Below, piece by piece: positions 4,638 to 28,761 of a DNA stretch of 33,142 nucleotides. Under the pieces are notes generated by a model. It did no database searches. It was not told where the DNA came from and saw only the letters and a list, made by a program, of their open reading frames with translations. Every line of letters begins with the position of its first letter. Position 1 is the first letter of the stretch. Position numbers and translations under genes: made by a program. The DNA is from Anaerolineae bacterium (GTDB taxonomy: Bacteria; Chloroflexota; Anaerolineae; Promineifilales; Promineifilaceae): positions 1-33,142 of the forward strand of contig WFSA01000183.1 of the NCBI GenBank assembly GCA_015486215.1, read 5' to 3'.

Positions 4638-4747
4638 GATTGATTGCTTTTAAGTTGAAAGATTGATTGTATAAGCGGTTTCGGTTTATGGCAAAATAAC
4701 AGTAGGGGCGATTTGCTGAATCGCCCAAGATAATATGAATTATACGG

Positions 4748-4900
4748 GTGTCATTATCGTAAACTTAACGATTTATCATTCCCCCATCTGCATGAGGGCA
4801 GGCTCTGCGAAGGCAGGAATCCACCTCTCAGGGAAGTATGGATTCCCGCCTGCGCGGGAATGACAGTCAAATATATTCGTTAAGTTTACGAATATGATAC
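4748..4900. repeat. REP-like inverted repeat element with CATTCCC core
   Basis: The outer arms contain TCGTAAACTTAACGA at 4757–4771 and its exact inverse at 4877–4891, flanked by GTGTCAT and ATGATAC. The inner part holds CATTCCCCC and GCGGGAATGACAG, a degenerate palindromic core shared with the repeats near 23562 and 27118. It ends five bases before the stop codon of the carboxylate-amine ligase gene. It has no coding capacity and is probably a non-autonomous mobile repeat. Confidence 0.6.
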
Positions 4901-4905
4901 GGGTA

Positions 4906-6048
4906 TTACAATCCCAGTTTTGTCTCTTTTACGAGATGGTCAACAACGGCTATTAAAGCCTCATCTCTATTATCACTTCCGCCATGACGTTTGTATACAG
5001 CCAACTGACGATCCGCACTTGTTCCCCGCGCCAAAATTGTGCGTACAAACTCAACCTCATCCCGTGTATCCAATTCTGTCGTCACATCTTCAAGAATGAT
5101 TAGCAATTCATCCATCAATACTGCAAAGGGGACGGATTTTTGGCGGCCAAAATCAATCATATTGCCATCAATACCGTAACGCACCGCCCGCCATTTATTT
5201 TCTGTGATGTGCATGTGCCGATATTGCCGCCATGACAAATTTTGCTGACGTAATTTGATTAGTTTGGCGCAAATCGCTTGGAATAGAGCCGCGATACTGA
5301 CCGCCTCATCCACGGTCGTACAAATATCATTGATACGGAATTCCAGCGTATCAAAAATTGGATGGGGACGAATATCCCACCAAATTTTTGCTGTCGTATC
5401 CTCTTTGCCAAACGCGCCGACTTTTGCCATCGTCTCCTCAAAGCGTTTGTACTCTGCCCATGAGGTGAAGGTGTGGGGCAGACCAGTACGCGGCATCGCT
5501 TCAAAGATGACGCTACGGTACGATTTTAAGCCTGTGTTACGGCCGTGCCAAAACGGAGAGCTGGTGGAGAGTGCCAACATATGGGGGATGAAGTAACGGG
5601 CTTGATTCATCACATCAATCATCAAATCTTTCTGATTACCAAAGCCGACATGGACGTGCATCCCAAAAATAAGCAGGCGTTGTGCCACCCCTTGCATATT
5701 ATCCAGCAGTTCACGATAGCGCACCCCTTCGGTGATGGATTGCTCATCCCAACGGGCAAATGGATGGGTAGAGGCGGCCGCAATCTGCACCCCATTCTCC
5801 TCAGCCATTTCGATAACAGAGCGGCGCAAGCGTATGATCTCTTTGCGTACTTCTTTAACATCGCTGCACACATTACTGCCAACTTCAACTTGCGACTGCA
5901 TAAACTCAGGCTTGAGATCGATCTTTTTATCGCGTTGCTCATCTAGTGATAAAAATTCACTGATATAAGCGTGCAGGTTGCGTGTTTCTGGATCGATAAT
6001 TTGGTACTCTTCTTCAACGCCTAATGTCAGAGGGGGTAATGAACTCAT
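4906..6048 (-). CDS. Carboxylate-amine ligase, YbdK/GCS2 family
   Basis: The 380-residue protein opens with LGVEEEYQIIDPETRNL, the signature start of the glutamate–cysteine ligase type 2 (YbdK-like) family. It also carries the conserved H-x-H-V segment (FGMHVHVGFGNQ) and EFRINDICTT, which fit the ATP-grasp-like glutamine synthetase/GCS fold. The family joins a carboxylate to an amine using ATP; E. coli YbdK has weak gamma-glutamylcysteine ligase activity, but the natural substrate of most members is unknown. A clear GGAGA lies seven bases before the ATG, supporting the start. It sits 35 bp downstream of pepA on the same strand and is probably co-transcribed with it. A terminator follows at 4611–4637. 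Confidence 0.9.
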   Translation of the reverse strand: MSSLPPLTLGVEEEYQIIDPETRNLHAYISEFLSLDEQRDKKIDLKPEFMQSQVEVGSNVCSDVKEVRKEIIRLRRSVIEMAEENGVQIAAASTHPFARWDEQSITEGVRYRELLDNMQGVAQRLLIFGMHVHVGFGNQKDLMIDVMNQARYFIPHMLALSTSSPFWHGRNTGLKSYRSVIFEAMPRTGLPHTFTSWAEYKRFEETMAKVGAFGKEDTTAKIWWDIRPHPIFDTLEFRINDICTTVDEAVSIAALFQAICAKLIKLRQQNLSWRQYRHMHITENKWRAVRYGIDGNMIDFGRQKSVPFAVLMDELLIILEDVTTELDTRDEVEFVRTILARGTSADRQLAVYKRHGGSDNRDEALIAVVDHLVKETKLGL

Positions 6049-6083: not shown

Positions 6084-7577
6084 TTACGGCCAGCTGCGTA
6101 AAAATTGAACGAGCAGGCGTGCGCCAAAACCAGTGCCGCCTTTCGTAATATAGCCTTTGTTTTTATCTGTAAACGCCATTGACGCGATATCGAGATGCGC
6201 CCATGCGTAGTCGGTAAACTCTTGCAGAAAAACGGCCGATGTTCCCACACCGCCATACCGCCCGCCGCCATTTTTCATATCAGCCACATCGGAATCAATC
6301 GTGCGTCGATACTCTTCCCAGAGAGGAAGATGCCATAGGCGTTCACGAGTCGCATCACTAGCAGCCATCAATTTGCCGCGCAGTTCAGCATCGTTGCTAA
6401 ACATGCTGGCCGATACGTCCAGCCCCATAGCGATGATGGAAGCTCCTGTGAGTGTGGCGAGGTCTATGACCGCTTTCGGTTTGTAGTTGGCGGCGTAGAC
6501 AAGACCGTCGGCCAGCACCATGCGCCCTTCGGCATCGGTGCTGATGATCTCTATTGTTTTGCCATTGCTCGCTTTGATGATGTCGGCGGGGCGGTAAGCG
6601 TCTGCGTCGGGCATGTTTTCGGTGGCGGGGACGATGCCGACGACGTGTAGAGGAATATCTAAGATGCCGACCGTTTTCATCGCGCCTAAAACGGCCGCTG
6701 CGCCTCCCATATCTGATTTCATCAATCCCATATTGGCGGATGGTTTGATGGAGATGCCGCCGGTATCAAAGGTGATCCCTTTGCCGACAAGGACGATTGT
6801 GTCTAACTCATCACGGTCTGCGTTATGTTCCAGCACAATAAATTTGGGTTTGAAGCCTGCCCCTTGTGCGACAGCTAAAAACGCGCCCATTTTGCGCTTT
6901 TTTGCCCATTTGCGCCCGCCGACAATGAGTTTCATCCCATGCTCATGGGCGATCTGTTTGGCGGTATCGGCTAATTTTTGCGGGGTGGCGATATTGGGCG
7001 GCATATTGACGAGATCGCGGGCGAGGATGGTTCCTGCGGCGGTGGCAACTGCCGTTTTCACCCCATTCTCAACCGCCGTCATTTTGTCCGCGTCCATTTC
7101 AACCAATGTTAGCGTCTCAATTGCGTTGGACGGCTCTTTCTTTTTGTCGGCATCGTAGGTATAAAGCGCGAGTAGAGCGGATTCGATGGTGGCTTGCACG
7201 GCCGTTTCCACATCCAAGCCGCCCACGCCCGCCCCATGCACGATAGAAGCGACCTGCGTGCCGTTCAATGCGCGGGCGTGTTTGATCGCCGCCGCCGATG
7301 CTTGCCGCACCGCTTCCAGATCAAACGTATCCCGCTTGCCCAAGCCGACGATCAACACCCGCTTGGCAGCCATCGCCCCGCGCGGATAAATCACGCCGAC
7401 TTCGCCCATCTTGCCTGTTAAATCACCAGCCGCGATGAGATCGCTGATCGCGCCATCAAGCGCATGATCAACCGCTCCCGTCGCCCCGCTTGGGGTAATG
7501 ACATCATCAAATAAATTAACAATAATGGTATCAGCATTACTGTTCTGGATATTTCCTTGTTTTGTTTGGATATTCAT
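6084..7577 (-). CDS. pepA: Leucyl aminopeptidase (M17 family)
   Basis: The 497-residue protein has a divergent N-terminal macro-like domain and a C-terminal M17 catalytic domain. The metal and catalytic motifs are present: VGKGITFDTGG with the Lys and Asp ligands, KSDMGGAAAV, and STDAEGRMVLADGL with the Asp-Ala-Glu-Gly-Arg signature. It should be a cytosolic hexameric two-metal enzyme releasing N-terminal residues from peptides. No strong Shine–Dalgarno sequence precedes the ATG. A 112-bp mobile hairpin element lies 42 bp upstream and carries a promoter-like sequence pointing at this gene. The ligase gene follows in the same direction. Confidence 0.96.
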   Translation of the reverse strand: MNIQTKQGNIQNSNADTIIVNLFDDVITPSGATGAVDHALDGAISDLIAAGDLTGKMGEVGVIYPRGAMAAKRVLIVGLGKRDTFDLEAVRQASAAAIKHARALNGTQVASIVHGAGVGGLDVETAVQATIESALLALYTYDADKKKEPSNAIETLTLVEMDADKMTAVENGVKTAVATAAGTILARDLVNMPPNIATPQKLADTAKQIAHEHGMKLIVGGRKWAKKRKMGAFLAVAQGAGFKPKFIVLEHNADRDELDTIVLVGKGITFDTGGISIKPSANMGLMKSDMGGAAAVLGAMKTVGILDIPLHVVGIVPATENMPDADAYRPADIIKASNGKTIEIISTDAEGRMVLADGLVYAANYKPKAVIDLATLTGASIIAMGLDVSASMFSNDAELRGKLMAASDATRERLWHLPLWEEYRRTIDSDVADMKNGGGRYGGVGTSAVFLQEFTDYAWAHLDIASMAFTDKNKGYITKGGTGFGARLLVQFLRSWP

Positions 7578-7618: not shown

Positions 7619-7730
7619 GTATCTTCTCAGTATTCTGGGGAGACTTGACAAATTTTCCTAATGGTACTCGTGTAAAATAAAGTACTGATGAAATTTGTCA
7701 AGTCTTGTACACAATTTGTTGAGAAGATAC
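7619..7730 (+). mobile_element. 112-bp MITE, copy 1, with 8-bp duplication
   Basis: The ends are GTATCTTCTCA and TGAGAAGATAC, and exact copies of GTTCACTC lie at 7611–7618 and 7731–7738. Inside, AGACTTGACAAATTT and AAATTTGTCAAGTCT pair, so the whole element folds into one long hairpin. It has no open reading frame. Removing it and one duplication restores ATAGAGTG-GTT-CACTCTAT, a small hairpin downstream of the kinase-like gene. Confidence 0.92.
7674..7701 (-). promoter_or_regulatory. Promoter-like sequence inside MITE copy 1, pointing at pepA
   Basis: On the minus strand a perfect TTGACA (7696–7701) is followed after 16 bases by TATTTT (7674–7679), a weak -10 match at 4 of 6. The pepA start codon is about 97 bp further on. 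It is a candidate only; the hairpin structure of the element also explains why the sequence is conserved. Confidence 0.35.
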
Positions 7731-9028: not shown

Positions 9029-9151
9029 GTGTCTTCTCAAAAAATTGGGGACATGAGTACAGCAGATTTGAAAAAGAACAGATTAACTTGACTGACACAA
9101 TCTGTTCCTTTCTTAATTTGCTGTACTCACCCCGAAATATTAAGATCTTAC
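9029..9151. mobile_element. 123-bp hairpin element of a second, related family
   Basis: Exact 8-bp copies of CAAAATTG lie at 9021–9028 and 9152–9159. The ends read GTGTCTTCTCA and, on the other strand, GTAAGATCTTA, which resemble the GTATCTTCTCA end of the 112-bp family. Inner arms starting GAGTACAGCA and ending GAACAGATT pair across a loop of about 14 bases. It has no coding capacity. Confidence 0.75.
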
Positions 9152-12961: not shown

Positions 12962-13045
12962 ATATCTTCTCAGTATTCTGGGGAGACTTGACAAATTTTC
13001 CTAATGATACTCGTGTAAAATAAAGTGCTGATGAAATTTGTCAAG
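12962..13045 (+). mobile_element. MITE copy 2, right end lost
   Basis: The left end (ATATCTTCTCAGTATTCTGG), the middle and the start of the right arm (AAATTTGTCAAG) match the 112-bp element. The sequence then departs abruptly after 13045, losing the last 28 or so bases. No matching duplication is left. The minus strand keeps TTGACA (13039–13044), 16 bases, TATTTT (13017–13022), directed toward the epimerase start about 105 bp away. Confidence 0.82.
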
Positions 13046-15408: not shown

Positions 15409-15520
15409 GTATCTTCTCAGTATTCTGGGGAGACTTGACAAATTTTTCTATTGATACTCGTGTAAAATAAAGTGCTGATGAAATTTGTCAACTCTTGTCC
15501 ACGATTTATTGAGAAGATAC
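15409..15520 (+). mobile_element. 112-bp MITE, copy 3, inside the nusA operon
   Basis: The ends are GTATCTTCTCA and TGAGAAGATAC, and CTGCTGAC is exactly duplicated at 15401–15408 and 15521–15528. It lies between nusA and ylxR and should be transcribed with the operon. Without it and one duplication, ATACCTGC and GCAGGTAT (15398–15405 and 15538–15545) form a small hairpin that it now splits. Confidence 0.92.
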
Positions 15521-23456: not shown

Positions 23457-23498
23457 GTTTCCTACTTAGGGAAGGTTCGTTTTTAACTTTGGACTTTC

Positions 23499-23531
23499 AG
23501 GTGACAGGCACTTGGCAAGTGCCTGTCACCT
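23499..23531. repeat. 33-bp perfect hairpin
   Basis: AGGTGACAGGCACTT and its exact inverse form a 15-bp stem with loop GGC. There is no T-tract in either direction, so it is not an obvious intrinsic terminator; it could block exonucleases or be a repeat. It lies between the pspA-like gene and the TPR/zinc-ribbon gene. Confidence 0.75.
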
Positions 23532-23561
23532 TGGCCACAGTTATTTACGAGTTTTCCCTTA

Positions 23562-23797
23562 GGCCATTTATGAAAAATAATTATACGTTTGTCATTCCCG
23601 TGCCTATCCTCACGAAGGTGGGGATGGGGGCGGGAATGACAATCAAAGTTTTGGATGATTTAAATGTATCTTCTCAACAAATCGTGGACAAGACTTGACG
23701 AATTTCATCAGCACTTTATTTTACACGAGTATCATTAGGAAAATTTGTCAAGTCTCCCCAAAATACTGAGAAGGTACATTTAAATTTAGAAATGGCC
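23562..23797. repeat. GGCCATTT-ended repeat interrupted by MITE copy 4
   Basis: The ends GGCCATTT and AAATGGCC enclose a core with GTCATTCCCG and GCGGGAATGAC. Without the inserted MITE and its duplication it would be 116 bp. Its right arm matches 27118–27166 over 49 bases with one mismatch, giving the uninterrupted sequence. Confidence 0.75.
23666..23777 (-). mobile_element. 112-bp MITE, copy 4, nested in another repeat
   Basis: The ends are GTATCTTCTCA and CTGAGAAGGTAC, and ATTTAAAT is duplicated at 23658–23665 and 23778–23785. The empty site is visible at 27118–27166. The element is inverted relative to copies 1–3. Confidence 0.93.
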
Positions 23798-23801
23798 TTA
23801 C

Positions 23802-23833
23802 TCACTTGCAAACTTGCACACTTGCCGCCTTGC
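23802..23833 (-). repeat. Octamer array after the pspA-like stop codon
   Basis: Four units, TCACTTGC, AAACTTGC, ACACTTGC and CGCCTTGC, end on the first base of the stop codon. On the minus strand the stop TAG is followed by GCAAG-type octamers, as after typA and the M23 gene. Confidence 0.7.
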
Positions 23834-24567
23834 TACATGTCCGCCTGCATCTCATCGGCATCGTCAATGTCTGCTTCGTAGCTAGGAGCTGCGCCCAAGC
23901 CCAGCCGCCGCTTGCGCTCTTCTAATTGCAATTCAATTTCTGATTTACCCAGCGCGTCATCCATTTGGCTGTTCAGACGGTCGGCATACATTTCGCTATG
24001 TGCGCTCGCTTTGTCCAGACGGGAACGAATGGATTCGCCCATGCGTGCCATGTCACCATCTCCCATTCCCATCACATCGTCTAAGCTCTTGATCGCTTTG
24101 ACGGTGGCCTCTTTCGACTTTGCCAATTTTAATAAAGATTCCATCTCCCGTTGTTCTTGACGGATGGTCTTGAGTTTGGATTCTAATTTGAGACGGGCAT
24201 CACGGAGTGCATCATATTCGCGCTGTTGCTGCACCCATTGAGCGTGATATTGCTCTTGTAAACGACGTTTGCTGTTGAGTTCGGTTTGTGCTGCCGATGC
24301 TAAGTCAGTTTTGCCCTGCATGAGCAGTGCGTCAATGTTACGATCTAATTGATCAGCCTCTTTTTTATATTGCTGATATTTACGCTTCATTGTCCGTGCT
24401 TCGCCGCCGATGGTGGCGGCTGCATCTTCTAAATCGTCAAGATTTTTCTCAGCATTACGGACATACTGTTTCATAACGGCAACAGAGTTCTGCTCTAATG
24501 CGGTATCTACCATTTGATGTAGATTTGCTTGAATAAGGGTTCTGGTTTTATCAAGTAATGATGCCAT
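23833..24567 (-). CDS. pspA: PspA/IM30 family membrane-stress protein
   Basis: The 244-residue protein is almost entirely alpha-helical coiled coil with the PspA/IM30 start (MASLLDKTRTLIQANLHQMV) and the family segments RNAEKNLDDLEDAAATI and RLDKASAHSEMYADRLN. The family forms ESCRT-III-like assemblies on the inner membrane that maintain its integrity. ATG 24567 was chosen because AAAGGAG precedes it at ideal distance; a further upstream start would run into MITE copy 5. The C-terminus is acidic. Downstream on the same strand, after 419 bp of repeats, lie two membrane proteins that may act with it. Confidence 0.92.
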   Translation of the reverse strand: MASLLDKTRTLIQANLHQMVDTALEQNSVAVMKQYVRNAEKNLDDLEDAAATIGGEARTMKRKYQQYKKEADQLDRNIDALLMQGKTDLASAAQTELNSKRRLQEQYHAQWVQQQREYDALRDARLKLESKLKTIRQEQREMESLLKLAKSKEATVKAIKSLDDVMGMGDGDMARMGESIRSRLDKASAHSEMYADRLNSQMDDALGKSEIELQLEERKRRLGLGAAPSYEADIDDADEMQADM

Positions 24568-24591
24568 TTTTTCTCCTTTATATACTCGGTA

Positions 24592-24703
24592 GTATCTTCT
24601 CAATAAATCGTGGACAAGACTTGACAAATTTCGTCAGCACTTTATTTTACACGGGTATCATTAGGAAAATTTGTCAAGTCTCCCCAGAATACTGAGAAGA
24701 TAC
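24592..24703 (-). mobile_element. 112-bp MITE, copy 5
   Basis: The ends are GTATCTTCTCA and TGAGAAGATAC. The flanks ACTCGGTA (24584–24591) and ACTCGATA (24704–24711) match at 7 of 8 bases, consistent with an older duplication. It stands between the hybrid kinase gene and the pspA-like gene, 24 bp upstream of the pspA start. Confidence 0.9.
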
Positions 24704-27051: not shown

Positions 27052-27117
27052 ATTAATTTAACGGAATCGCAAAGCTGAAAACATCTTCATCATTTTGTCA
27101 TTCCACCATTGATCTTA

Positions 27118-27320
27118 GGCCATTTCTAAATTTAAACCATCCAAAACTTTGATTGTCATTCCCGCCTCCATCCCCGCCTTCGTGAGGACAGGCACTTCGT
27201 GAAGGTAAACTCTTTTAGGCGGGAATCCATGATTTCCCAGACTGTAGATTCCTGCCTTCACAGAGCCTGCCCTCATGAAGATGGGGGAATGACAGATCGA
27301 AGTTTCTGATTTTATTTAAT
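27118..27320. repeat. GGCCATTT-ended repeat with CATTCCC core
   Basis: GGCCATTTCTAAATTTAAAC opens a segment identical (one mismatch over 49 bases) to the right arm of the repeat at 23562–23797. The core then holds TCATTCCCGCC, GGCGGGAATCC and GGGGGAATGACAG, resembling the 4748 repeat. The right end lacks the closing GGCC arm. It represents the site before MITE insertion. Confidence 0.65.
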
Positions 27321-27481
27321 CCTCATTCCTTAGCGGCAATGGGTCTATACAGTCGTTCACAAACAACAACAGCCAACCACAGAAAATATATCTTGTGATT
27401 GGCTGTTAGGAATTTAATAATGTTGTACCCTAAAAGGGAATTCTCGCTTTTAACTTGCTAAGAGTGGTTCACTTTTTCATG

Positions 27482-27566
27482 GTATCTTCTCAGTATTCTG
27501 GGGAGACTTGACAAATTTTCCTAATGAAATTTGTCAAGTCTTGTCCACGATTTATTGAAAAGATAC
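27482..27566 (+). mobile_element. MITE copy 6, internally deleted (85 bp)
   Basis: Both ends are present (GTATCTTCTCA and TTGAAAAGATAC), but 27 bases of the loop are missing between two ATG triplets, leaving CCTAATGAAATTTGTC. The flanks TTTTCATG (27474–27481) and CTTTCATG (27567–27574) match at 7 of 8. The outer flanks AGAGTGGTT and AACCACTCT (27461–27469, 27580–27588) form a hairpin that the element splits. Confidence 0.88.
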
Positions 27567-28378: not shown

Positions 28379-28761
28379 TCCACATCAAATCTTGCCGTTC
28401 TAGTTAAAGGCGTGTATTTCGCACGACATTTCAGACCTATATGTGTATCTTTCTTCGTAATCAGCCACCTTTTCTAATGAATCGTACATCAATTGCACAG
28501 ATAAACACAGATAAAAAATAAGCGGAGCTAATCAGTGTAGTCAGTACGATCAATGCCCTATTTTAGGCAGGGGAATGATTGCATATCTCTTTTTGTGTCT
28601 TCTCAATAAATCGTGGACAAGAGTTGACAAATTTCATCAGCACCTTATTTTACACGAGTACCATTAGGAAAATTTGTCAAGTCTCTCCAGAATACTGAGA
28701 AGATACCTCTTTTTGTTATACAGCTGTCTGTTCCTGCATAAAACGCAAGAATGCGCTGAAC
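28379..28761. other. 383-bp spacer with MITE copy 7 and nonamer repeats
   Basis: It holds a mobile element (28595–28706) and CACAGATAAACACAGATAAA near 28497–28516, an inverted version of the ATCTGTGTT nonamers near 13050. No gene is supported. Confidence 0.6.
28595..28706 (-). mobile_element. 112-bp MITE, copy 7, with exact 8-bp duplication
   Basis: The left end reads GTGTCTTCTCA (one change from consensus) and the right end TGAGAAGATAC. CTCTTTTT is duplicated exactly at 28587–28594 and 28707–28714. Confidence 0.9.

Follow-up and report, generated by a model that had tools for sequence, protein, structure and literature searches.

Inverted ends that start with GG, together with a TWA duplication, are features of IS5/PIF-Harbinger-type elements. 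Elements of the IS66 family are marked by ends that begin with GTAA and by repeats of 8 bp (PMC11946415; PMC12888890), and among prokaryotic MITEs copy numbers of 169 for MITECca01 and of up to 711 for ERIC have been given (PMC9769881; PMC10969869). The locus described here lies on contig C183 of a 4.13-Mb, 341-contig, 96%-complete Anaerolineae MAG, and we refer to the whole stretch of 33,142 nucleotides that was analyzed as the window. It is a case of nesting, in which one non-autonomous element has been inserted into another, and this is an already known phenomenon; what rises above routine is the density of elements and the repeated use of one octamer. In the explanation that we favor, with a probability of about 0.75, a MITE (MITE-A), moved by an IS66 transposase, would have entered an older repeat, of what we call the GGCCATTT family, at a preferred octamer.

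The host repeat occupies 23562-23797 on the minus strand (GGCCATTT...AAATGGCC), with TTA duplicated at 23559-23561 and 23798-23800. An earlier note on this DNA had read it as interrupted by a MITE, and so it is: a 112-bp non-autonomous element, MITE-A (GTATCTTCTCA...TGAGAAGGTAC, 23666-23777, plus strand), lies between two copies of ATTTAAAT (23658-23665 and 23778-23785, plus strand), inside the outer TTAs. It has imperfect TIRs (GTATCTTCTCA / GTACCTTCTCA), forms a nearly full-length hairpin and is 96.4% identical to the consensus of its family. A third small repeat, GGGAAGGTTCG...CGAGTTTTCCC (23469-23558, plus strand), has TTA on either side, one of them in common with the host repeat. These two repeats adjoin in the same way at L012 (~6980-7088) and L039 (~10254), a recurring neighborhood which suggests that the duplication made by one TWA-type element serves as an insertion site for another.

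The window holds a second repeat of this kind at 27118-27329 (plus strand; GGCCATTT left end, ...CCTCATTCC right end, TTA at 27115-27117 and 27330-27332). When 23666-23777 (112 bp) and one ATTTAAAT are deleted in silico, the left flank of the filled copy matches the reverse complement of 27130-27195 over 66 bp with 93.9% identity (E 3e-24), and the right flank matches 27117-27136 over 20 bp with 100% identity (E 4e-7). The earlier note had named 80% identity as the level below which its observation would fall; because both flanks clearly pass this level, the interruption stands, far beyond chance, and the exact element ends expected from the comparison are indeed 23666 and 23777. The same note took the 27118 repeat for the uninterrupted sequence, and this is right in that it carries no insert, but its octamer reads GTTTAAAT (on the strand of the filled copy), one base off ATTTAAAT, and it is homologous to the host repeat only to ~27195, from where a different right half runs to CCTCATTCC at 27329. 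It is thus a chimeric relative of the host repeat, and similar chimeras are found elsewhere in the genome (e.g. L023:511). The idea that the pair would give the 8-bp duplication without any outside genome needs a similar amendment: the duplication is real, but because the comparator reads GTTTAAAT, the window pair alone fixes seven of the eight bases. For the eighth, certainty comes from the identical flanks, from the presence of ATTTAAAT in 82 of ~100 host copies (a count that includes the few filled copies) and from the 8-bp duplications seen across the MITE-A family.

The last 31 bases of MITE-A have 598 matches in the genome with at most three mismatches, against none for the reversed control. 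Among the 70 copies with both ends in 327 kb, 60 have a length of exactly 112 bp, and in 55 the 8-bp flanking repeats are perfect (38) or differ by one mismatch (17); full copies have a median identity of 98% to the consensus. The 11-bp TIR and an inner stem fold into an almost complete hairpin (z -3.3 for the copy at 23666 and -6.3 for the one at 24592). MITE-A has the general features of a MITE, being short, without coding capacity (112 bp are too short to encode a transposase), bounded by TIRs with a hairpin, and multi-copy with a target duplication. Within the window, copies are also found at 7619-7730 (minus strand, duplication GAGTGAAC), 15409-15520 (minus, GTCAGCAG), 24592-24703 (plus, ACTCGGTA/ACTCGATA) and 28595-28706 (plus, CTCTTTTT), along with a truncated copy at 12963-13045 (minus) and an internally deleted one of 85 bp at 27482-27566 (minus, CATGAAAG/CATGAAAA). 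The copy at 24592-24703 overlaps the start region of a PspA/IM30-like gene (23833-24627, minus strand), whose leader it could affect. A related 123-bp subfamily, MITE-B, is represented at 9029-9151 (plus, CAAAATTG). The sister subfamilies (123 bp, 143 bp, 114 bp starting with GTAACATCTCA, and 120 bp starting with GTAACTACTCAGCC) all have this end type and the 8-bp duplication in common, and they are found nested in one another. Diverged relatives of MITE-A (74-86%) occur in two genomes of the same family (G010 and G012); viral contigs gave no match, and a search of Rfam found nothing.

The MITE-A-type subfamilies and two TWA-type repeats make up 3.6% of an unselected 477-kb sample (the window together with those of contigs C1-C23 and C44-C64 that had not been taken before). 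This is a minimum value, since no more than seven consensus sequences went into it. Densities are drawn exclusively from this sample because the 0.77-Mb one includes contigs picked for carrying MITE-A. A coverage of at least 3.6% by small non-autonomous elements is high for a prokaryote. The window is also rich in the palindrome AACGGCCGTT, found 20 times (at 370, 1190, 8636, 8900, 11256, 12864, 14353, 15590, 18285, 18564, 19797, 20247, 20575, 21356, 22148, 22328, 25243, 26359, 32410 and 32902) and 3261 times in the genome (reversed control 7). Its copies run into the thousands in ~10 further genera of this family; other genera have few or none, and genomes beyond the family have 0-9. It resembles the cyanobacterial HIP1, and the literature searched contained no description of AACGGCCGTT as a HIP1-like palindrome.

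The host family counts ~100 GGCCATTT left ends genome-wide, and of the 35 genomes searched practically only this one has it. Identical 3-bp flanks are found in 57 of the 69 copies with both ends (TAA in 33, TTA in 24), and it is a non-autonomous, TWA-duplicating family with ends and a target like those of IS5/PIF-Harbinger. The search for a related transposase covered PF01609, which has two matches in the genome. Several host subfamilies exist: the window copy is of the type CATCC...CTTTG, and the other filled copies are CACCC...TTTTG, as most of them are, or diverged. At 4742-4906 the window has a repeat with 30-bp inverted ends (ATACGGGTGTCATTATCGTAAACTTAACGA) and a core of the same GTCATTCCC...GGGAATGAC type as the GGCCATTT repeat. 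At L067 (15513-15920) and L159 (on C180), GCCATTTC-flanked GTAACTACTC copies and part of the host repeat follow one another much as in a tandem, which recombination near contig ends may have brought about.

What is new here is that the octamer is filled in eight host copies and its neighbor, one base away, in six, by several subfamilies and in both orientations. Seven of the eight loci came from a search for filled junctions and the eighth, L168, from reading all of the ~100 host copies. MITE-A itself sits at the octamer in one orientation in the window and at L121, and in the opposite one at L122, L123 and L127; at L124 the site is filled by the 143-bp subfamily (MITE-C) and at L126 by the 120-bp GTAACTACTC subfamily (MITE-II), this last element having been invaded in turn. 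L168 (501-830) is a triple nesting, with a diverged A-like element at the octamer and a 114-bp A2 element four bases from its end. The octamer variants ATTTTAAT (L127) and ATTCAAAT (L168) are duplicated as such. The six insertions one base over, at TTTAAATC, are those of L016, L106, L139, L145, L149 and L152, and the host repeat has received four more at CCAAAAC and two adjoining it.

Since inserts, orientations, host subfamilies and octamer variants differ among the filled copies, the octamer is a recurrent target that was entered independently at least five times, in different GGCCATTT copies. One could suppose instead that a single filling took place and that the filled GGCCATTT repeat spread from there as a composite, as the presence of MITE-A at the same octamer in several copies, with the window and L121 agreeing in orientation, might lead one to think. 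This is very improbable, for the inserts at that octamer are MITE-A both ways, MITE-C, MITE-II, and an A-like element with a nested A2, and this variety of inserts at one site largely refutes a single filling; host subfamilies and octamer variants differ as well. Nor do we give more than the slightest credit to the idea that the 27118 copy is a site of precise MITE-A excision rather than an original empty site. It is uninterrupted, with one base change within the target octamer; but a single substitution is unusual as an excision footprint, and with most of the ~100 host copies uninterrupted and ATTTAAAT in 82 of them, precise removal of the element and one duplication is superfluous. Among the host copies, none was seen with a residual duplication at the octamer.

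As for the machinery, an IS66-family transposase acting in trans would move the 112-bp element through its IS66-type ends. IS66 elements (PF03050) of genomes of the same family or class end in GTAACTATTCAGG, GTAACTATACAGG, GTAACCGTTCAG or GTATTTGTTTAG, those with the first three being described as intact, and three of the IS66 loci (L078, L082 and L084) have perfect 8-bp duplications. Because these ends and duplications agree with the published hallmarks, IS66 parentage is the best inference, and we file MITE-A as IS66-type rather than as a proven derivative. The rival here is another transposase family with an 8-bp duplication, e.g. ISL3, IS1595, ISAs1 or IS256 (the last being the one searched for). 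In its favor, MITE-A starts with GTAT, unlike the GTAA of IS66 (the subfamilies A2 and II, GTAACATCTCA and GTAACTACTCAGCC, do start with GTAA), and the assembly lacks the parent. The IS66 elements of the same family share GTAAC....CA ends and 8-bp duplications, and we hold such a source to be unlikely. PF00872 is absent from the genome, which rejects IS256, and the one long DDE_Tnp_1 gene, at C289, was discarded as it lacks MITE-A-type ends. Neither PF03050 nor a protein search (best E 0.18) detected an IS66 transposase in the assembly. A search of ~0.77 Mb for a full-length parent of up to 5 kb, with paired GTATCTTCTC ends and matching 8-bp flanks, returned only MITEs and nested MITEs, all of ~380 bp or less, with no transposase-bearing MITE-A copy among them. 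Fragmented MAGs often lose multicopy IS, and for this reason the missing IS66 gene is weak evidence.

As for the choice of this octamer, the targets of 164 insertions outside the host family are AT-rich, with flanking T-runs and A-runs, and by a matrix of this preference it ranks within the top 0.2% of genome positions. Chance clustering is rejected under a uniform null, although this is a weak null that ignores the AT bias of the targets, and the matrix test is fairer. Yet other positions of the host repeat outscore the octamer and are less used, so that the modelled sequence preference explains the hotspot only in part. The octamer lies where the GGCCATTT repeat is AT-rich and nearly palindromic; it would be a preferred target, possibly through a structural cue. 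We tentatively entertain the thought, without giving it much weight, that the GGCCATTT repeat is a structural landing pad, in which the near-palindromic AAATTTAAAT or an extruded hairpin is recognized by an IS66-type transposition complex. One or two positions would then receive several subfamilies independently of each other, and one mobile family would shelter another from genes. A single genome offers IS66-type sites in numbers, with eight copies filled at the octamer, six filled one base further on and ~80 empty there, so that one can read without experiments how a little-studied transposase family chooses its targets.

The order of events proposed in the earlier note, repeat before MITE, is supported by one-way nesting and by the difference in divergence. 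MITE-A or a close relative lies intact inside GGCCATTT repeats ~10 times (some of these being diverged relatives, with 76-78% identity, or nested deeper), and the reverse never occurs; a GGCCATTT repeat lies inside the 120-bp subfamily once. The median identity to the consensus is 89% for the GGCCATTT family, albeit from only three full-length hits sampled, versus 98% for MITE-A, and judged by this divergence the MITE-A family would be the younger of the two. The element would thus have entered a pre-existing GGCCATTT repeat and duplicated the 8-bp ATTTAAAT.

Among known systems, the IS66 family and its non-autonomous derivatives resemble MITE-A in the 8-bp target duplication and in the GTAA-type inverted ends of the sister subfamilies. 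They differ from it in that MITE-A has no transposase gene, a GTAT start and no parent in the assembly; the literature searched gave no IS66-derived MITE family. The host repeat is closer to the IS5/PIF-Harbinger MITEs (Tourist-like, TWA duplication), through its GG-starting inverted ends and its TAA/TTA duplication, but it is bacterial, has no transposase tied to it, and has in common with other repeats a central GTCATTCCCG hairpin. Like MITE-A, the prokaryotic MITEs (MITECca01 of Cardinium, ERIC, Correia and Chunjie) are short and non-coding, with TIRs and direct repeats, and land in other mobile elements. What sets the present case apart from them is that sister subfamilies have been co-amplified, one of them to ~600 right ends, and lie both within one another and within repeats of a second class, which duplicates TWA.
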